Part shown: positions 186 to 34,087 of the stretch, piece by piece
Numbering within the stretch: position 1 is the first letter of the stretch
How the letters are laid out: every line of letters begins with the position of its first letter
Source of the DNA: a virus
Strand: one strand, 5' to 3'
IMG/VR virus record: IMGVR_UViG_3300005590_000060
Coordinates: 1-34,087 of that record
Length of the DNA stretch: 34,087 nt
Position numbers and translations under genes: made by a program
The notes under the pieces: model-generated
What the model saw: only the letters and a program-made list of their open reading frames with translations
What the model was told of the DNA's origin: nothing
The model's database searches: none

Positions 186-743
186 TTAAACCTTCGTCGG
201 TTTACATGGTGATAGTTCAATGGTTTTGAAGATGTAGTCCTTCCACTTCATCCACCAATCAAGCGCATCATCATCCATTAAGTTAATAGCCTTATCGCTA
301 AACTGCTTCCATTCTTCAATGCTGTGTCGTTGGCAGCCAATTTGCAGAACTTTATCTGTGTATGTGATAGACCACATTTCAAGTTGCAGGCTCTTAATAT
401 GACACATATTACCCACTACACCGATCAGGTTTGCACCGCTTAGGTTTGCACCGCTTAGGTCTGCACCGCTTAGGTCTGTACGACGCAGGTTTGCACCGCT
501 TAGGTTTGCACCGCTTAGGTTTGCACCGCTTAGGTTTGCACCGCTTAGGTTTGCACCGCTTAGGTCTGCACCGCTTAGGTTTGCATCGCGTAGGTTTGCA
601 TCGCGTAGGTCTGCATCGCTTAGGTCTGCATCGCTTAGGTCTGCATCGCGTAGGTCTGCACGCTCACCGACTTCAACGTTGTTCAACCACTTAACATGAT
701 TCTGTAGGACGTTGTTCAATTCTTCTTGTGTGTACTTTTTCAT
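186..743 (-). CDS. Pentapeptide-repeat protein
   Basis: The 185-aa product has a short N-terminal region, then about fifteen consecutive pentapeptides of the type A(D/N)LSG or ADLRD from about residue 28 to 106, then a non-repeat tail of about 80 residues rich in Trp ([12 protein letters not shown]). Pentapeptide repeats fold as a right-handed quadrilateral beta helix. Some, such as Qnr and MfpA, mimic DNA and bind gyrase, but many phage members have no known role, so none is assigned. AAGGA lies 8 bases before the ATG, inside the end of the upstream 69-aa gene, which suggests translational coupling. The repeat is nearly identical at the DNA level (15-base unit), so copy number may vary. Confidence 0.85.
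427..663. repeat. 15-bp tandem repeat encoding the pentapeptides
   Basis: About fifteen copies of a 15-base unit, in plus orientation TTGCACCGCTTAGGT with C/T, ACC/ATC and CTT/CGT variants. They encode the pentapeptides on the minus strand. Adjacent copies often differ at no or one position, which suggests recent expansion by slippage or unequal recombination. The unit is a multiple of three, so gain or loss keeps the frame. Confidence 0.9.
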
Positions 744-1149: not shown

Positions 1150-1647
1150 TCATTTAATCGGTGTAACCATGTACTTCTTATTGTGTGCGCTCACCGGTAC
1201 CAGCTCGTAAATGTCCACACCGGAAAGAGCGCGCCCATTGATTTCCTTAATACAGTTAATCTCGAAACCAATGACGTTCAAGATACGGCGCATACATCCA
1301 AAGCCGCACGCACCGTCTACATAAGCCGTCTTAGCCTCACGCTTCCAATACAGACCATAGAAGGCGTGATCCTTCATTGACTGGACCGGTGACTTAATGG
1401 AAGCATCGCGGAAGCGCTTAGCCAACTTGTCTAACTCAGGTTGAAAGTGAGTCATTAGGAACTCACCAAGGCATTTACCAGTGCGGTCGTAACCTGTGCC
1501 GGTAGCATGTGTGATCTTAGTATCGTTACGGTCCAGCAGGGCAACGCTACCGTTACCACGACATGTCCACTTGAACTGTAGCGGGGTTAGATTGCGGTTC
1601 TGATTCAGGAATGCTTGCTGAGCTGCTTTTGTTAATAGTGTGTTCAT
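1150..1647 (-). CDS. Hypothetical phage protein, 165 aa
   Basis: The first minus-strand gene after the control region. The product begins MNTLLTKAAQQAFLNQNRN and has a glycine/cysteine-rich patch VDGACGFGCMRRIL near residue 115. It has no membrane segment or signal peptide. I do not recognise the family. Being the promoter-proximal gene of the minus arm, it is likely an early-expressed takeover or regulatory protein; that is inference from position only. The ribosome binding site is weak (GCGAGAA, about 6 bases from the ATG). A candidate promoter lies at 1683-1711. Confidence 0.7.
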   Translation of the reverse strand: MNTLLTKAAQQAFLNQNRNLTPLQFKWTCRGNGSVALLDRNDTKITHATGTGYDRTGKCLGEFLMTHFQPELDKLAKRFRDASIKSPVQSMKDHAFYGLYWKREAKTAYVDGACGFGCMRRILNVIGFEINCIKEINGRALSGVDIYELVPVSAHNKKYMVTPIK

Positions 1648-1807: not shown

Positions 1808-2297
1808 TGTACAGAGGCGCAAAATGTCTTCTGTACATTCTCTGTACATGTTTGTGATGAAATGCGTCATTTTATAAATGTTGCGAGAAATGGCGGTGAA
1901 ATGCGTGAGACTGTTGTACCAAATGTGCTGGATTGTGACAGTGTTGCGGGAAATGGCGGCGAACGGTCGCAATTGGTTAAAAAGTATACGAATGTGCTGA
2001 AAAATGTTGTACAGATATGTACAGAGAATGTACACTTTCTCTGTACAAGCTACAGGCCGCATGAGCCGTGGGCTGTAGAGGTTTTTGGAAATTCTGCGCC
2101 AAAACGTCTGTACAATAGGTCCTGCTTAGTCTCCCAAGGGCTACAGAGGAGGTTGTACAGATAGCGGATTTTTTGGGGGGTTAGCAAGTTAAGATTAAAG
2201 CATATAGGTAAAATCAGGATTTACGGTGTTTCGCGGCTTCTCTGTACAAGTGATGCGAGCGGTGTAAATGCGGTGAAATGCGTGAAACATGTGTACC
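1808..2297. repeat. Array of TGTACA palindromic sites
   Basis: TGTACA occurs at 1808, 1832, 1843, 2008, 2018, 2029, 2042, 2109, 2154 and 2243, with TGTACC at 1915 and 2292. Several are flanked by TCTC on the left or GAGA on the right, so the fuller motif is close to TCTCTGTACA. The spacings in the clusters are 11, 10, 11 and 13 bases, about one helical turn, as expected for a protein binding cooperatively along one face of DNA. Ten copies in under 450 bases is far more than chance (about 0.1 expected with equal base use). Confidence 0.8.
1881..1963 (+). repeat. Pair of 20-bp direct repeats
   Basis: TTGCGAGAAATGGCGGTGAA (1881-1900) and TTGCGGGAAATGGCGGCGAA (1944-1963) match at 18 of 20 positions and start 63 bases apart. 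A related copy, AAATGCGGTGAAATGCGTGA, starts at 2267 and resembles the segment at 1888-1907. They lie between clusters of TGTACA sites and could be iterons or a second operator type. Confidence 0.6.
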
Positions 2298-2317: not shown

Positions 2318-2348
2318 TTGACATTTCAATCGCTGTGTGGTTGATACG
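2318..2348 (+). promoter_or_regulatory. Weak candidate promoter before terminase small subunit
   Basis: A perfect TTGACA (2318-2323) lies 75 bases before the start of the small terminase gene, but the best -10 partner is GATACG (2343-2348), with a long spacer of 19 bases and 3 of 6 matches. It may need an activator, perhaps the protein that binds the TGTACA sites. No good alternative was found. Confidence 0.25.
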
Positions 2349-2398
2349 GTGGGTAATGGGCGATACAATTTCCAAAAACATTACAGGGTGGACGAACC

Positions 2399-2923
2399 AT
2401 GGGTCGCAAGTTTGAAGTGAAAGACTTCATCGGTATTGATATACACGCGAAGCACTTTAACTTTGCGATTGAATACAGCAAAGACTTTAATGCACGTCGT
2501 GCGGCTGCTGTGTGCGGCTATGCGCCGGAATCAGGTTATACATTGTCAGAACGTGAAGACGTGCAGACCGTTCTATCGGTGATAGCGTCAAAGCGTCTGG
2601 AGTCGTCGCACATCGACGCTGAGTGGGTACTCATGGAAGCGGTAGATAATCATTTGATTGCGAGGCAGAGCGATAACATAACCGCCAGCAATACAGCACT
2701 GAATCTGATTGCGAAACATACCATGGTGGATGCATTGGCAAGTGATAAGCTGAACCTCAATGTACAGGGTGATAAAGAGATCCGCGATAGACTCATGAGA
2801 GCGCGTCACAGAGTAGGAGGCGCTGAACCTACACCAATACACCAAGAATCAGAGAACGGTCCGCAGCAGGGCAGCAGTGGAGCCTCAGGCACCGATTCAA
2901 CCAATGACGTGAGCTTTTTTTAA
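2399..2923 (+). CDS. terS: Terminase small subunit
   Basis: The 174-aa protein recognises phage DNA and hands it to the large terminase for packaging. Its N-terminal half contains the helix-turn-helix signature of the family (FNARRAAAVCGYAPESGYTL, about residues 31-50). The middle has the pattern AEWVLMEAVDN ... TALNLIAKHTMVDALAS seen in Terminase_2-type small subunits, used for oligomerisation. The last 35 residues are a flexible Gln/Ser/Gly-rich tail. GGGTGG lies about 8 bases before the ATG. The stop overlaps the terL start (TAATG), so the two are translationally coupled. It begins directly after the TGTACA-rich control region, a natural place for its DNA target. Assignment rests on motif pattern and position. 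Confidence 0.85.
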   Translation: MGRKFEVKDFIGIDIHAKHFNFAIEYSKDFNARRAAAVCGYAPESGYTLSEREDVQTVLSVIASKRLESSHIDAEWVLMEAVDNHLIARQSDNITASNTALNLIAKHTMVDALASDKLNLNVQGDKEIRDRLMRARHRVGGAEPTPIHQESENGPQQGSSGASGTDSTNDVSFF

Positions 2924-4479
2924 TGAATCCATTGAATCAGGCTATGCACATTGCACCGCAGAATGACTTCTTCGAACCTGGTCAAATGGATATTGTGCTG
3001 GCGGATGAATGCGCACGTTTCCATCATGATCCGCTGGGCTGGGTAATGTGGGCGTTTGACTGGGGCTACGGTGAGCTTGAAGGCTTCGACGGTCCTGATA
3101 CATGGCAGATAGAATTCCTCAGTCAGTGGGGTGAATCACTACGCAATAATCCATTCGACGGTGTGACACCTAAAGACCCATACAGGGACGCCACTGCATC
3201 CGGTCACGGTATCGGTAAATCGGCAATCAGTTCATGGATTATTCTGTTCATCATGAGCACACGACCTTATTCGAAAGGCATCGTTACTGCGAATACAGGG
3301 GACCAACTGCGCACTAAAACATGGGGTGAGTTGGGTAAATGGAAGTCTCGTTGCATCGTGGGTCACTGGTTCGAGTACAACAATGGTAAAGGCTCCATGA
3401 ATCTCTATCACAAGTCATGGCCTGAATCATGGCGTGTGGATGCGCAAACCTGTAGAGAAGAGAACAGCGAAGCATTCGCTGGACTGCATGCGGCAAACTC
3501 AACACCATTCTACTTATTCGATGAAGCATCAGCAGTGCCCGATAAGATCTGGGAAGTTGCGGAAGGTGGTCTGACGGATGGTGAACCGATGTTCTTCGTA
3601 TTCGGTAATCCGACACGTAACACGGGTAAATTCCGTGACTGTTTCACACGACAGAAGCATCGGTGGAACACCAGACAGGTAGACAGTCGCACGGCCAAAA
3701 TGACGAACAAAACGCTGATTGAAGAATGGCGGAATGACTGGGGTGAGGACTCCGACTTCTTCAGGGTGCGTGTGTTGGGACGTTTTCCACGTGCAGGTGA
3801 TATGCAGTTCATCGGCACAGATATGTGCTTTGATGCAATGAAGCGCAATGCCGGTCGTTACCTTGGTACAGATCCTTTAATCTGCGGTGTTGATCTGGCA
3901 CGCGGCGGCGATGACAACTGTTTTATCTCATTCAGGCGTGGACAGGATGCTAAGTCAGAAAAGACGTACAGAATACCGGGCGAGAACTCACGTGATTCAA
4001 TGAAGGTTGTGAGTAAGTTAACCATGCTGTTTGATCGACATAAGCCGGACGTGATCTTTGTCGATGTCGGTGCAATGGGTGGACCCATCGGTGATAGGCT
4101 GCGTCAGTTGGGTTATCACGTTGTGGATATTGGCTTCGGGTGGAAAGCTGACAATGAGAAGGAATACGCGAACAAGGCTTCTGAGATGTGGGGTCGTATG
4201 CGTCAGTGGATCATACGCGGTGGATCAATTCCTGATGAATCTGAATTAGAACAAGAACTCACCGCACGTGAATACCAACATGACGCGAAAGACCGCATCA
4301 TGATTGAACCTAAGAAAGAAATGAAGAAGCGTATAGGTCATTCGCCCGACTGGGCTGATGCATTGGCGCTGACATTTGCGCAAGAAGTACCGTCTAGGGT
4401 GTTACCGCGTGGACACTTGGATAAAGCACCAGGTGCACGGGTGAAACAGATAGAACATGACCCGCTTGCAGACATGTAG
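2923..4479 (+). CDS. terL: Terminase large subunit
   Basis: The 518-aa packaging motor and nuclease docks on the portal and pumps DNA into the head. The ATPase half has a Walker A loop GHGIGKS (94-100), the Walker B strand and catalytic acid in FYLFDE (196-201), and a coupling motif FGNPTRNTGKF (about 228-238). The C-terminal RNase H-like nuclease shows the first acid in GVDLARGGDD (about 323), a second in VIFVDVGAMGG and the last in DWADALALTF. Length and motif order are normal for the family, and no key residue is missing. It starts on the A of the terS stop (TAATG). It is followed by a 57-base gap. Confidence 0.95.
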   Translation: MNPLNQAMHIAPQNDFFEPGQMDIVLADECARFHHDPLGWVMWAFDWGYGELEGFDGPDTWQIEFLSQWGESLRNNPFDGVTPKDPYRDATASGHGIGKSAISSWIILFIMSTRPYSKGIVTANTGDQLRTKTWGELGKWKSRCIVGHWFEYNNGKGSMNLYHKSWPESWRVDAQTCREENSEAFAGLHAANSTPFYLFDEASAVPDKIWEVAEGGLTDGEPMFFVFGNPTRNTGKFRDCFTRQKHRWNTRQVDSRTAKMTNKTLIEEWRNDWGEDSDFFRVRVLGRFPRAGDMQFIGTDMCFDAMKRNAGRYLGTDPLICGVDLARGGDDNCFISFRRGQDAKSEKTYRIPGENSRDSMKVVSKLTMLFDRHKPDVIFVDVGAMGGPIGDRLRQLGYHVVDIGFGWKADNEKEYANKASEMWGRMRQWIIRGGSIPDESELEQELTAREYQHDAKDRIMIEPKKEMKKRIGHSPDWADALALTFAQEVPSRVLPRGHLDKAPGARVKQIEHDPLADM

Positions 4480-24910: not shown

Positions 24911-25239
24911 TGGAAGCCATTGACATTAATAAAATCCAACTAGAACAAGCTAGTATTGAGCGAAAGTTGGATGAACATATTTTCGAGTCTAAGATGTATC
25001 GAGAACAGAACCAGTTAATGTTTGACCGTTTACTAGAAGCACAGAAGACCAACACTGAAGCAATCACTGAGTTGACGAAAGCAACTGCCGGTATTGTTGA
25101 AGCCTATCGAGCGGGTCAGGGTGTGATTAAAGTCGGCAGTGCTTTAGGTCGATTTGCTAAATGGTTATCGGGTATTGCTATAATCGGTGTAGCATTTAAG
25201 TGGATGTGGTCACACCTCGGTGGACCACCGTTTACTTAG
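24910..25239 (+). CDS. Holin-like protein: coiled coil plus C-terminal membrane segment
   Basis: A 109-aa protein with a charged coiled-coil N-terminus (IQLEQASIERKLDEHIFESK, about 8-27), a polar middle, and one hydrophobic segment near the end (LSGIAIIGVAFKWMW, about residues 86-100). Small proteins of this type occur at the end of late operons of marine podophages and are often annotated as putative holins. A holin would permeabilise the inner membrane at lysis, but only one membrane segment is visible and no endolysin is adjacent, so this is tentative. A spanin or tail-associated coiled coil is another possibility. It ends four bases into the convergent helicase gene. Confidence 0.5.
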   Translation: MEAIDINKIQLEQASIERKLDEHIFESKMYREQNQLMFDRLLEAQKTNTEAITELTKATAGIVEAYRAGQGVIKVGSALGRFAKWLSGIAIIGVAFKWMWSHLGGPPFT

Positions 25240-27695
25240 AAGAAGTTCACTTCAAGATCATTCGTTGTAATACCGCTACGGTAACGCTGTAGCGCATTCT
25301 TCAATCCTTCCTGATCATCGGTCTTACGCTCTAAAGCATCCACTACGGCTAAATCCACAGTGTCAGCACAGATGATCCTGATGATTGATACAGGACGGTT
25401 CTGACCCTGTCGATTAATACGACCGTTCATCTGTTCATAAAGCTCTAACGACCAGTTACACCCGAACCATACTAAAATACAACCCGACTCCTGTAGACCA
25501 TCTACGCCATGTCCCATTGACGCAGGATGACCGATCATAAGTTTGATACCACCATTGTTCCACTTGTTGATGATCTTCTCTGTGTCGGCTGATTTAGCGG
25601 CTGTCATGTTAACAGGGTTGTACTTTTTAAAACGCTTCATAATACGTTCAGCGTCAGACTTGAATGAATAGCTACATAGCACCGGTGATCCACCGGCTTC
25701 TTCTAACACTTCCTCAAGTGCATCCAGCTTAGCGTCATGCAGTACTTCGAACTCAGGTGACTCACTGCTGAGATAAGGACTTCCGTTACAGTTATGAGCG
25801 ATGAATATTTCACCATTTACACCACGTACTGTGAATCTATTACGCTTACCTGCATTAATCAGGTCGTAGGTTTTCTCGATCCGACTGGTAACAACAAGTC
25901 TTCTTCTCGCCATCCGTTCCTTATACGAGCGAATAACGTCACATCCTTGAACCCATAGCGACGTGCAGCCTGTGTCACTGTCATTCGACCCAACGGTGTC
26001 GTGATGAATGTGCTGTTCCGTTTGTTGTTTGACTGTCTGTTCTGAGTTGCCCATCTGCAATTGACCACATGATAATCCCCATCGTTGTCCAATCGTTCGA
26101 TCATTAAATGACTCTGATAACCATCCTGCATGTCTTCCCAGAAACGACTGAATGAATCGTACCATTCGTCGCACACCTGTATCCCGCGACCACCGTAGTT
26201 CGGGTAATCCTTGTCCTTCGGGTTGCGACATCGAGAACGCATGTTTATCCAGATGGTGTATTCCCTCGTAGGACTGCCATCCTTCTTTCGTGACATTCCG
26301 TGCGAACCCGTCACACTGATTATTGTCTCCCCGTGTCGGCAACCACAGCTTTTGACACCAGGTCTTCGGGGATTGCGTAAGTTCTGACCAATTGCTTTGT
26401 ACTCTTTTCCACAAACGCAGCGTACAAGCCACATTGCTCTCTTTCGCTTTCCTGTTGTGGAACCCGCTCTCTCCAAAACCGTCAGGTAGCCGAACACTTG
26501 TCCTGTTAAATCCTTCGCTGGCATCGCCATTTAAAACCTCACAAGCTTCTTTCCAACCTGAATCAGTCAACACCTTATGATCCGGTGTCATCCATACGCC
26601 GTCTAATTCTACTACGGTCTTACGGCCTTGGAAAGCTAAACTGTAGACGTTTACCCACTCGATACCGTCCCAGACCTTATCGCCTTTTTGAAACTGCTCT
26701 ATAGGTTTCCACCCTGAGTCAGTTAGAACTTCAGTACCTTCTGCTAAACAGAATTGGAGGCATTTATTAGATACCGCTGATCGACTGAATACTTCAATCT
26801 CAGCGCCGCTATCTAACTCAGCGAACATATCCTTCTCAACTTCGTCATACGCTTTACGTGCTTTGATCGGTAAATCTACCAGTAGGTTTGTCACTTTACA
26901 GTCGGGTAGATCGAGGTAATCATTAGCGTCCATCTTCTTAGTGATGTCGCTGATCTTTTCTTCAATAAATTGCTTACCCAGTTCAGTCGGTGTGTACTTC
27001 CACCCTGAATAATCTGACATGAAGTAACTGTCTTTAAAGTGTGTGATGAATTCACCGAGGCGTTCACCGCCATCTACTGCGAGGTATTGACCATGTAGAT
27101 CAAGATAACCGTTGCTGGCGGGTGTACCTGTCAGGCCAGTGCGGTACTTGAAATGTGGAATGATCTTACGCCAACCGGTGATCTTGATTTTATGTTCAGT
27201 ACCCCATTTGTCTTTACGGTCACGGGTACCACCTTTCATGCGTTTGGTGGTACTGTTCTTCAACTTCGACACTTCATCATATACAACCATGTCGAACGGG
27301 AACGGTTTACCTTGACTGATGTAGTAATGATCCAGTTGCTCTGCAAGCCAATTTAAACCTTCATAATTGACCAGGAAGATGTCAGCATCTGCGAACAAAG
27401 CACGAGTGCGTTTATCTTTATTCCCGTGAAGGATACTAAAGCGTAGATGCTTCGAGTGCTCCCATTTCTTAGCTTCACGCGCCCACACCGCTTGAATAAC
27501 TCGTAGTGGACCACATATCAATGTCTTCTTTACAGTACCTGATCTCATTCGATCTACAATTGAAGTGAGCGTTATCGCTGTTTTTCCAAGCCCCATACCA
27601 AGCCACAACATTGAATCATCGTATTGCAGTTGATGCATGACGCATTCTTTTTGGTATTCATGAAGCTGCCCCGGTGTTAATAATTGCTTTGTCAT
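25236..27695 (-). CDS. SNF2/DEAD-type helicase interrupted by an intein
   Basis: The 819-aa precursor contains a superfamily 2 (SNF2-like) helicase of about 499 aa after splicing. Extein motifs: Walker A GMGLGKTA (33-40), motif II in VVYDEVSKLKN (137-147), TGLTGTPASNG (186-196), then in the C-terminal lobe IGHPASMGHGVDGLQ (721-735) and the arginine-finger motif QMNGRINRQGQ (755-765). Between LQF (313-315) and CNGSPYL (from 636) lies a 320-residue intein. Such helicases accompany phage VRR-NUC nucleases and act in replication or recombination. The ATG overlaps the HNH/AP2 gene stop (ATGA). The 3' end overlaps the convergent holin-like gene by four bases. Activity presumably depends on splicing, since the intein separates the two helicase lobes. 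Confidence 0.9.
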   Translation of the reverse strand: MTKQLLTPGQLHEYQKECVMHQLQYDDSMLWLGMGLGKTAITLTSIVDRMRSGTVKKTLICGPLRVIQAVWAREAKKWEHSKHLRFSILHGNKDKRTRALFADADIFLVNYEGLNWLAEQLDHYYISQGKPFPFDMVVYDEVSKLKNSTTKRMKGGTRDRKDKWGTEHKIKITGWRKIIPHFKYRTGLTGTPASNGYLDLHGQYLAVDGGERLGEFITHFKDSYFMSDYSGWKYTPTELGKQFIEEKISDITKKMDANDYLDLPDCKVTNLLVDLPIKARKAYDEVEKDMFAELDSGAEIEVFSRSAVSNKCLQFCLAEGTEVLTDSGWKPIEQFQKGDKVWDGIEWVNVYSLAFQGRKTVVELDGVWMTPDHKVLTDSGWKEACEVLNGDASEGFNRTSVRLPDGFGESGFHNRKAKESNVACTLRLWKRVQSNWSELTQSPKTWCQKLWLPTRGDNNQCDGFARNVTKEGWQSYEGIHHLDKHAFSMSQPEGQGLPELRWSRDTGVRRMVRFIQSFLGRHAGWLSESFNDRTIGQRWGLSCGQLQMGNSEQTVKQQTEQHIHHDTVGSNDSDTGCTSLWVQGCDVIRSYKERMARRRLVVTSRIEKTYDLINAGKRNRFTVRGVNGEIFIAHNCNGSPYLSSESPEFEVLHDAKLDALEEVLEEAGGSPVLCSYSFKSDAERIMKRFKKYNPVNMTAAKSADTEKIINKWNNGGIKLMIGHPASMGHGVDGLQESGCILVWFGCNWSLELYEQMNGRINRQGQNRPVSIIRIICADTVDLAVVDALERKTDDQEGLKNALQRYRSGITTNDLEVNFF
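25791..26750 (-). other. Intein in the helicase (residues 316-635)
   Basis: The intein starts at Cys316 in CLAEGTEVLTDSGWKPIEQF (block A). Block B is WMTPDHKVLTDSGWK, with T370 and H373. Block F is EKTYDLINAGKRNRFTV (607-623), and block G is GEIFIAHN ending His634-Asn635, followed by the +1 nucleophile Cys636. All catalytic residues needed for splicing are therefore present. The intein-specific sequence is a mini-intein split into about 73 N-terminal and 30 C-terminal residues. The roughly 220 residues between them have no recognisable domain, because that DNA encodes an HNH endonuclease in another frame. The frame nevertheless stays open throughout, as required for the C-extein to be made. 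Confidence 0.92.
25859..26530 (-). CDS. HNH homing endonuclease nested out of frame in the intein
   Basis: A complete 223-aa nuclease on the same strand as the helicase but shifted by one base relative to it. It has a Cys-rich N-terminal part (CVCG at 38-41, SCGC at 61-64), HGM...YTIWINMRSRCRNP (78-104), YGGRGIQVCDEWYDSF (112-127), and the HNH core IERLDNDGDYHVVNCRWATQ (144-163) with NRQSNN. A helix-turn-helix-like C-terminus follows (MTVTQAARRYGF, from 183). All are typical of phage HNH homing endonucleases. GAGG lies 6 bases before its ATG, inside the intein frame, so it can be translated on its own. Its TGA falls inside intein block F. It probably cuts intein-less helicase genes to spread the intein. 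Confidence 0.9.
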   Translation of the reverse strand: MAMPAKDLTGQVFGYLTVLERAGSTTGKRKRAMWLVRCVCGKEYKAIGQNLRNPRRPGVKSCGCRHGETIISVTGSHGMSRKKDGSPTREYTIWINMRSRCRNPKDKDYPNYGGRGIQVCDEWYDSFSRFWEDMQDGYQSHLMIERLDNDGDYHVVNCRWATQNRQSNNKRNSTFITTPLGRMTVTQAARRYGFKDVTLFARIRNGWREEDLLLPVGSRKPTT

Positions 27696-31834: not shown

Positions 31835-32070
31835 TCTATACCATCCAATGCCGCTTCTAATGTTGAGGTTGTTGATACACAAAAACCCACCGGAGTGTTT
31901 GGATACCACTGCACTGACCAAATCTCACCAGTCTTTAATGCTTTCTGTTTTTCTTCTTCCGATACCCAATCATTGAAAACATCTTCGACAGCTTGTTCTA
32001 TCGGTTCGTAGTTATTTTTATAATCATTATGGTAAATTAACATACCAGCTTTATGTTCGGGGAACTTCAT
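31831..32070 (-). CDS. Hypothetical phage protein, 79 aa
   Basis: A 79-aa protein. Its C-terminal part, GEIWSVQWYPNTPVGFCVST followed by TSTLEAALDGIE, is a pattern I have seen in many small phage proteins of unknown function. The N-terminus is LIYHNDYKNNYEPIEQ. It has ATGA overlaps with the genes on both sides, so translation is coupled. No catalytic or DNA-binding motif is seen. Confidence 0.65.
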   Translation of the reverse strand: MKFPEHKAGMLIYHNDYKNNYEPIEQAVEDVFNDWVSEEEKQKALKTGEIWSVQWYPNTPVGFCVSTTSTLEAALDGIE

Positions 32071-32405
32071 ATCATCACTCTCTTAGGAAATCTATCAAAG
32101 CCGTATCGCTTGGCCCTACTCATTGTTGATGTAATTATTCGCGCTTCAGACTGGAAGCATTTAGCTATATCAGCGGGGCCGAATCCCATGTTACGAAGCT
32201 CGAACATGTTAGCTACATCTTCAGCGTAGAATTGTCTGGCTTTACCACGCCCCATCGGATTGAACGGTGAAACCAATTTCAATTCAATCGCTTTCAACCG
32301 CACACTGTCATAAGTACGGTCAAGGATGAATGCGCAACTGGTGATGTCGAATTTCTGATAAAGACGCTTCAGTTCATTAATCTCAACACCAGTCCAGTCG
32401 CGCAT
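32067..32405 (-). CDS. DNA-binding protein with two HTH-like segments
   Basis: A 112-aa basic protein. MRDWTGVEINELKRLYQKFD, then SCAFILDRTYDSVRLKAIEL (about 23-42) is a Myb/GcrA-like helix-turn-helix (W at the start, L-x-R-T-x-x-S-V-R-x-K-A). A second helical set follows at about 60-95 (FYAEDVANMFELRNMGFGPA, then DIAKCFQSEA). Such proteins in phages may regulate transcription or resemble homing-endonuclease DNA-binding parts; no nuclease motif is present. It lies four bases from the Tad2 gene. Confidence 0.75.
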   Translation of the reverse strand: MRDWTGVEINELKRLYQKFDITSCAFILDRTYDSVRLKAIELKLVSPFNPMGRGKARQFYAEDVANMFELRNMGFGPADIAKCFQSEARIITSTMSRAKRYGFDRFPKRVMI

Positions 32406-32409
32406 CGTC

Positions 32410-32931
32410 TTACTCCACCAGTCCGATTACATACCAGTCTTCAGATAGCATGTCGGTTTGAGAAGCCAGCCAACCGACCACCATGGAACCGTCAGCGGCT
32501 TTCATGTCGATATGATCACCGATAGTAACAGGTGCCTCAAAACCACAGCGATCATAGAAGCTGTTAGGTTCAAGATTCTCAACCACGCGACCAGGGTTCA
32601 ACATGATCCACATATCAGCACCATTCCAACCTGCACGAGCAACCTTGAAGCCCTGCTTCATTGCGTCAATGGCATGTCCGAAACCAACACCTTGTTTGAT
32701 GTTACGGTACGCATTGTCGAACTGAGCTTTAGGGGACCATGAGATATAACCCTCGTGATCTGGGTGATTGGGTTTACCACCATCGGTGTACTCAACCAAG
32801 TAACCTTCATCCAGTGGATTTTCATTCGCAGGTAATTCCCAACCACGATACTCATTGTAGTCAGCACGGTTCATCGGATAGGCACGAACCACTTTCGTAC
32901 CGATGAATGTGTTTTCAATTGGTTCTAACAT
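32410..32931 (-). CDS. Tad2-domain (DUF2829) protein, possible anti-Thoeris factor
   Basis: A 173-aa protein with two parts. Residues 1-77 (KVVRAYPMNRADYNEYRGW ... GYISWSPKAQFDNAY) are a small domain common in phage proteins, ending in the S-W-x-P-K motif. Residues 84-173 match DUF2829: FGHAIDAMKQGFKVARAGWN, MWIMLNPG, HIDMKAADGSMVVGWLASQT and DMLSEDW. This domain is now known as Tad2, which sequesters the signalling molecule of the Thoeris defence and so blocks host abortive infection. Many DUF2829 proteins are untested, so anti-Thoeris activity is inference. The stop of the MazG-like gene upstream shares a base with its start (TAATG). Confidence 0.85.
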   Translation of the reverse strand: MLEPIENTFIGTKVVRAYPMNRADYNEYRGWELPANENPLDEGYLVEYTDGGKPNHPDHEGYISWSPKAQFDNAYRNIKQGVGFGHAIDAMKQGFKVARAGWNGADMWIMLNPGRVVENLEPNSFYDRCGFEAPVTIGDHIDMKAADGSMVVGWLASQTDMLSEDWYVIGLVE

Positions 32932-33347
32932 TAGTCGCCACCTTTATCTTCTTCTTGTAATTCGATTTTAATTTGACCCGACTCTTTATCAGCACGGGCT
33001 TGCGCGTCAGCGTTACTGTAACGACCGTCAGGATAACGCGTCATCAGTTTATCAGCGTTCATCGCCAACACTTCTTCACGGTTAATATTTAACGCTGCAC
33101 GAATGGCTTCAAGTGCGAACTCAATGTCACCGAGTTCTTCAAGCACGTTCATGTAGTCAAGGTCTTTACCGTAAATGGTGTGACGTTTGATTGCGTCCAC
33201 CAGTTCACCTGATTCACCTGCTAACAACATGACCATATGGTTCATATGAGCTTTGAACGGTGTAGTTTCTTCAATGATCTCTTCACCGGGTTTGATCAGT
33301 GCGTTAACCATTTCAGAATAATTCTCTTCTAATGTTTTATCAGTCAT
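32931..33347 (-). CDS. MazG-like nucleotide pyrophosphohydrolase
   Basis: A 138-aa all-alpha NTP pyrophosphatase. Metal-binding motifs are GESGELVDAIKRHTIYG (E45, E48) and NVLEELGDIEFALEAIR (E70, E71, D74), the E-x-x-E...E-x-x-D arrangement of the MazG superfamily. The last 35 residues are charged and probably flexible. Phage MazG proteins hydrolyse dNTPs or modified nucleotides, and some have been proposed to lower host ppGpp; the substrate here is unknown. It overlaps the HTH gene upstream and the Tad2 gene downstream. Confidence 0.85.
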   Translation of the reverse strand: MTDKTLEENYSEMVNALIKPGEEIIEETTPFKAHMNHMVMLLAGESGELVDAIKRHTIYGKDLDYMNVLEELGDIEFALEAIRAALNINREEVLAMNADKLMTRYPDGRYSNADAQARADKESGQIKIELQEEDKGGD

Positions 33348-33651
33348 GAATTAAATACCTTTTGAATTTATCTGTGACTTTATACACGCAGCAATTGCGT
33401 GCGGTTGTTCTTAACTTACTTGTGCGACCGTCGAGTGCAACACCATTAACGGTCTCCATTCTCATACGTTCAAGATAACCAGCGGATCTGAGATTTCCAA
33501 TATGGTAGGTCACATCTTTAACATCCCAGTTCAGAGCTTCAGCAATCTCAATAGTAGATGCTTCAATCTTACTGTGTATGAACAACAGAACGTATGTACC
33601 TAGCGGTGCGCGCCTCCAACCATTTCGAATCAACGCTAGTAGGTCATCCAT
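33340..33651 (-). CDS. Winged-helix DNA-binding protein
   Basis: A 103-aa protein. The segment YVLLFIHSKIEASTIEIAEA, then LNWDVKDVTYHIGNLRSAGY (about 40-59) and LERMRMETV is a winged helix: helix, turn, recognition helix (DVTYHIGNLRSAG) and wing. It ends KVTDKFKRYLI, as in small MarR/ArsR-like phage regulators. A candidate regulator of the minus arm or of the TGTACA sites, but nothing in the sequence links it to them. Start shares a base with the upstream stop (TAATG). Confidence 0.75.
   Translation of the reverse strand: MDDLLALIRNGWRRAPLGTYVLLFIHSKIEASTIEIAEALNWDVKDVTYHIGNLRSAGYLERMRMETVNGVALDGRTSKLRTTARNCCVYKVTDKFKRYLIHD

Positions 33652-33892: not shown

Positions 33893-34087
<195 letters not shown>

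Follow-up and report, generated by a model that had tools for sequence, protein, structure and literature searches.

What reads a dense array of short palindromes that lies before a small-terminase gene, and to what end? The array belongs to a virus contig (IMG/VR record IMGVR_UViG_3300005590_000060), of which a stretch of 34,087 nucleotides, referred to below as the window, was analysed. An earlier note on this DNA had proposed that a dimeric phage protein binds the sites cooperatively.

The TGTACA array lies between divergent arms

All ten TGTACA sites and both TGTACC variants that had been reported in less than 500 bases were found (Table 1), the former starting at 1808, 1832, 1843, 2008, 2018, 2029, 2042, 2109, 2154 and 2243 and the latter at 1915 and 2292. 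The window contains 19 TGTACA in total against 16.5 expected, which is not above chance overall; 10 of the 19 are packed into 441 bp and 9 are spread over the other 33.6 kb, so that the density of the array is not equalled elsewhere. The exceptional feature is the clustering of TGTACA, not its overall frequency. The maximum per 500 bp in 300 Markov sequences was 5, compared with 10 in the array, and in 5000 simulations of the 751-bp gap the maximum was 4.

The close spacings were measured as 11 bp (1832 to 1843) and 10, 11 and 13 bp (2008 to 2042), the same values as given before. The helical phasing read from them applies to the close sites and not to the rest of the array, where spacings of 24, 67, 45 and 89 are also present. 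The longer form that many sites were said to have in common, TCTCTGTACA/TGTACAGAGA, is present at 4 of the 10 TGTACA sites, and the second cluster holds a 10-bp inverted repeat, TGTACAGAGA (2018-2027) and TCTCTGTACA (2038-2047).

Table 1. Features of the array region, in positions of the window
Feature	Position	Strand	Basis
Divergent 165-aa ORF	1150..1647	-	no Pfam or PHROGs family
Whole array, 10 TGTACA + 2 TGTACC	1808..2297	no strand	motif count
Cluster 1, sites 1808, 1832, 1843 (spacings 24 and 11)	1808..1848	no strand	GTAC cores aligned in L005
TGTACC variant, between the two clusters	1915..1920	no strand	motif count
Element X, TTGGTTAAAAAGTATAC	1973..1989	+	cross-lineage element, between the window's clusters
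Cluster 2, sites 2008, 2018, 2029, 2042 (spacings 10, 11, 13 bp)	2008..2047	no strand	motif count
Lone TGTACA	2109..2114	no strand	motif count
Lone TGTACA, aligned to TGTACA/CGTACA of L005	2154..2159	no strand	motif count, alignment
Lone TGTACA	2243..2248	no strand	motif count
TGTACC variant	2292..2297	no strand	motif count
Sigma-70-like promoter match for terS (TTGATA, 17, TACAAT)	2341..2369	+	consensus match only
terS, small terminase, candidate reader	2399..2923	+	PF03592, phrog_51
terL, large terminase	2923..4479	+	sequence match

The array does lie between divergent arms, with the 165-aa ORF on the minus strand and terS on the plus strand. The sole match of this ORF in the viral contigs is an identical copy (L033/L161). 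The array is also overlapped by an ORF on each strand (1790-2164, plus; 1553-2062, minus). A PHROGs search with the plus-strand ORF gave no match, and we take both as mechanical. Promoter matches in the region number 3, against 1.7 expected by chance. A 10,777-base contig, L161, is identical to the window over 2202 bp and prolongs it leftward. Both arms beside the array look late, because the minus arm runs on in L161 to endolysin-like and Rz-like genes.

Relatives carry arrays of other words at the same place

L005 is the nearest relative found, with a TerS that is 69% identical in the best segment, and it has 13 YGTACR sites in the same gap; a search of related phages for TGTACA clusters, as the earlier note had suggested, is thus positive there. 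Six of the 12 GTAC cores of the window align to GTAC in L005, so that conservation is not lacking in this close relative, and the others are shifted, changed or in alignment gaps. Identical columns amount to 29 of 48 in the 12 cores and 329 of 651 outside; as a whole the cores are only slightly better conserved than their surroundings, and the case for conservation therefore rests on the blocks around clusters 1 and 2.

Of the 28 TerS relatives examined first, L005 alone showed a TGTACA cluster, and several others repeat different words in that place. The words repeated before terS in distant relatives, which are without TGTACA arrays, include GGTTGGC, TGTGCCG, GTGTCA, GTGTCC, CTTTAACG and others. 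In G004, AGGTTGGC occurs 8 times in the gap, as does TTGTGTCAT 9 times in that of G012, and neither occurs elsewhere in its genome; the array holds 6 of 6 genome copies of CTTTAACG in G035, 4 of 4 of TCTATCCC in G044 and 7 of 8 of TACTGTTGG in G041. TGTGCCG-type words were found in G005, G009 and G032, and GTGTCA upstream of terS at 9 places in Vibrio phage PS25B.1 (L154), an isolated relative, and 10 in 1.185.O. The GGTTGGC array upstream of terS in L309 has inside it a 25-bp inverted repeat with AGGTTGGCAGT and a spacer of about 40 bp.

With a single fixed scoring rule, 23 of 34 terS-upstream regions were positive compared with 13 of 772 equal-size control regions. Positives were called at a score of 9 and with 250 non-coding nt; the window (186 nt, owing to its overlapping mechanical ORFs) and G040 (167 nt) fail the non-coding rule and are counted negative. 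Among the control regions that passed, many consist of G+C-rich triplet-like repeats. As the 34 genomes are related, they are less independent than the Fisher value of 3e-27 implies. Weak or absent by score were G003, G006, G008, G022, G023, 1.021.A, G034, G037 and G042, among which G003, G006 and G023, below the threshold, show degenerate repeats by eye.

The gene on the upstream side differs in strand and identity across the relatives, and terS is constant. In several phages a gene of about 160-205 aa stands between array and terS; that of L154 matches an HNH endonuclease family. In G044, whose terL is 3.7 kb away from terS, the array stays beside terS. No array stands at this place in G042, which shares the primase family but whose TerL is unrelated and whose TerS match is weak. 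Being one case each, these two are indicative only that the array follows terS.

A common order was observed. The first cluster often includes two or three direct copies at 11-12 bp from one another; after about 80-200 bp comes a second cluster of inverted and direct copies, and single sites follow toward terS. Among 79 adjacent spacings of at most 30 bp in 22 sequences, 11-12 bp is commonest (23) and 10-13 bp accounts for 31, and right-facing direct pairs are exactly 12 bp apart in 12 of 29 cases; the words for this count were picked after the arrays had been seen. Exact matches to element X or its related forms (ACTTTTTAACC, GGTTACTTTTTGTAC, TGATCACTTTTT) were found in 11 of the 34 terS gaps, where about zero would be expected. 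The surprising part is the diversity of words at a fixed place.

A TGTACA triplet scan and a degenerate triplet scan of the viral contigs yielded at least 120 stretches each. The 68 arrays defined by a count rule share terminases, pentapeptide-type proteins and primase relatives as genes; no common reader gene was found among these 68, some of which are coding repeats. A DNA search of named phages with the window's gap gave no match, and the listings returned by literature searches for TGTACA palindromes, pac/terminase repeats and the P1 pac site contained no description of such arrays.

TerS is the best candidate reader

TerS scored 29.0 bits against PF03592 (cut-off 26.1), and profile searches matched it to the small terminases of SF6 (4zc3, E 3e-4; 3zqp, 6e-4) and Pam5 (21di, E 3e-13). 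Judged by these sequence matches, it belongs to the SPP1/SF6 small-terminase family. Its predicted model has an N-terminal HTH at residues 17-50 (helices 17-29, 32-38 and 43-50; pLDDT of the block 95-98). A fold search with the model returned nothing at E < 0.001, the small terminase of NV1 appearing only at E 2.5.

The small terminase, one of the readers named in the earlier note, is still the best candidate. The HTH and winged-helix proteins of the minus arm, also named there, are unlikely readers: neither the minus-arm ORFs 32067-32405 and 33340-33651 nor the small HTH gene at the left end of the window has a homologue in eight related genomes (blastp, E 1e-4), five of which score positive for an array.

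In their sequences, neither TerS nor the primase tracks the array words perfectly. The TerS of G008 is 93% identical to that of G009 and the two share 90% of the primase C-terminus, yet the G008 gap is without TGTGCCG; the array may be dispensable or may have been lost recently in G008, or a different reader may be at work. The terL frame of G008, of 875 aa, has two separate matches, which suggests an insert. The TerS of G034 is typical, and no array accompanies it. No visible tracking of the array word was found in the predicted recognition helix of TerS. Comparison of motif class with the TerS HTH, the primase C-terminus and TerL, with the G016 rows left out, was not decisive, and no class-specific gene stood out as reader when gene presence was compared across motif classes.

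The array is real and evidently constrained. The conservation in L005, the spacings of about one turn across lineages and the presence of both orientations support the view that it is a cooperative protein-binding array, as had been suggested. The dimeric part of that suggestion fares less well, the palindromic form being confined to this clade and the relatives having non-palindromic direct and inverted copies.

A proposed pac-like site and its rivals

We favour, with a probability of roughly 0.45, the reading that the array is a packaging-initiation (pac-like) nucleoprotein site linked to terS and used by TerS. A TerS ring, with HTH domains about one DNA turn apart, would nucleate on the clusters of short sites, 10-13 bp apart on either side of the conserved central element X. 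TerL would then be recruited and introduce the initial cut of headful packaging, and the complex may also dampen the terS promoter that lies immediately downstream. The array word would have been replaced in each phage lineage, with position and layout kept.

The pac-like reading is suggested because arrays of varied words sit upstream of terS (or of a small gene and terS), because terS stays constant while its upstream neighbour varies, because the G044 array remains with terS and G042, with its other terminase, has none, and because TerS matches PF03592 and the SF6 and Pam5 small terminases. It also agrees with the commonest close spacing, 11-12 bp, as adjacent HTHs in the small-terminase ring are about one DNA turn apart according to a section of PMC4737164. 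Fourteen contigs of at least 40 kb open at different places relative to terS, scattered as circular permutation would give, and the ends of three near-complete genome contigs have overlaps of 99-127 bp. The reading is not proven, because the word does not clearly follow TerS and G008 has no recognisable array in spite of its 93% identical TerS. The typical TerS of the arrayless G034 also speaks against it, as do the recognition helix without visible tracking of the word, the little preference for repeats that the SF6 DNA-binding domain itself shows in a section of PMC4737164, and epsilon15, whose TerS is of the same fold family and which is without a long gap before terS.

Several known systems are comparable. 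The pac site of phage P1 consists of TGATCA/G hexamers in several copies near the small-terminase gene; it is shorter than the window's array and is methylation-controlled. L006/L301 resembles it in having 7 TGATCA within 1.5 kb upstream of terS. The pac regions of SPP1 and SF6 likewise have sets of short repeats around the start of the small-terminase operon, with a homologous TerS (PF03592). Between these two related phages the words change at one and the same place and the cut region is conserved: according to PMC4737164, SF6 lacks the boxA repeats of SPP1 and has another repeat pair in the region, boxB at the cut is 90% identical between the two, and the small-terminase complex represses the operon. 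Unlike theirs, the arrays here lie entirely upstream of terS, with as many as 13 sites in both orientations over about 490 bp, many more words among relatives and a candidate packaging role. Repeats of an SPP1-type pac site would be expected to span the promoter and start of terS; those of the window lie upstream of the putative promoter and short of the terS start.

A replication origin is in our view improbable. In this model the sites would be iterons bound by an initiator of the phage, perhaps its SF3-type primase-helicase (L161 810-3437); A+T-rich stretches would serve for unwinding, and X for priming. The alpha origin of P4 is an iteron origin; the array differs from such origins in that its linkage is to terS and no dedicated initiator was identified. 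The array may resemble the oriL and oriR of SPP1, which in a part of PMC6316719 are described as direct repeats with an A+T-rich unwinding element, one of them in a late-gene intergenic region. The A+T content of the window's gap is about 0.57 (GC 0.44), and the A+T-rich stretches of relatives were judged by eye. Each of the eight complete relatives in the first comparison encodes the primase-helicase. A profile search relates this protein to the NrS-1 primase (6k9c, E 3e-14), which, by a passage in PMC8718748, starts at TTTGGTTA, resembling X. However, TTGGTTA by itself occurs 19 times in the gaps where 12.6 are expected, which is hardly an enrichment; only the longer X forms are enriched, and this NrS-1 primase motif was dropped as an array signal. 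The cumulative GC-skew minimum lies at or near terS in nine genomes, but per-strand analysis traced GC skew to gene direction, which leaves it without independent value as an origin signal; it too was dropped as origin evidence. Moreover, G042 keeps the primase without an array, and the array of G032 is not found in G008, although 97% of the primase C-terminus is common to both.

An operator or enhancer array for a phage- or host-encoded regulator of late-gene transcription is just as unlikely. Its place between divergent promoters or upstream of the terS promoter match, beside late-looking arms, would suit it, and the annotated repressor sites of epsilon15 (AY150271) include one for a phage-encoded regulator just before terS. 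Those sites are single, of 16-17 bp and genome-wide, however, and the window has no such repressor. No regulator gene co-occurring with motif class was found among the phage genes, the window's HTH genes are absent from the eight relatives, the sites stop about 45 bp upstream of the promoter match (last site 2292-2297; match 2341-2369), and a span of about 490 bp is long for an operator. Least probable by far is a repeat-prone hypervariable junction with no specific reader. In its favour, the gap lies next to a variable region, and contig ends are frequent there: among IMG/VR contigs with this TerS, 18 of 44 fragments end within 1.1 kb upstream of it, against 5.4 expected, a crowding that a border between conserved and variable sequence would also produce. 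Sites that are scattered, mostly non-tandem and in both orientations, the similar layout in unrelated words and the aligned GTAC cores in L005 argue against such a junction.

The array is best read as resembling known pac-type sites and as a variant among them in its word diversity, with origin and operator as live rivals. The arrays of relatives at the same place look like a fast-changing recognition site, probably for genome packaging. That one conserved protein, most likely TerS, has had its packaging address rewritten in each lineage, about ten scattered sites being replaced concertedly and the layout staying fixed, is a proposal that we regard as possible but doubtful; such a fast-diversifying packaging code might perhaps be driven by rivals or satellites stealing packaging. 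If the array is an origin or an operator instead, it would be an unusually fast-changing one. PMC11331095 describes the recognition of its own genome by a small terminase as subject to major debate. A fixed layout with many word changes before terS offers natural protein/site pairs for testing recognition, and makes this phage group suited to the study of specificity change and cross-packaging.

Other features of the genome

The terminase of this phage is epsilon15-like, and the phage encodes a DNA polymerase (phrog_1252), an SNF2 helicase and an 875-aa primase-helicase. Neither Rfam families nor tRNA were found in the window. The SNF2-type helicase gene (25236-27695, minus) contains an insert that has intein-like borders and an endonuclease/Hint-like match (phrog_93, aa 338-387); the helicases of the relatives 1.185.O and 1.021.A are shorter, about 499 aa. 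At 186-743 (minus), tandem DNA repeats encode a pentapeptide-repeat type protein and form the strongest repeat region of the joined genome. The end of the window, 33990-34087, is (GGAGCA)n, and the contig probably broke in a coding repeat, because a (PA)n-coding gene lies at a comparable place in relatives (G017). A Tad2-like domain of Thoeris anti-defence (PF11195, 82.6 bits) is encoded at 32410-32931 (minus).
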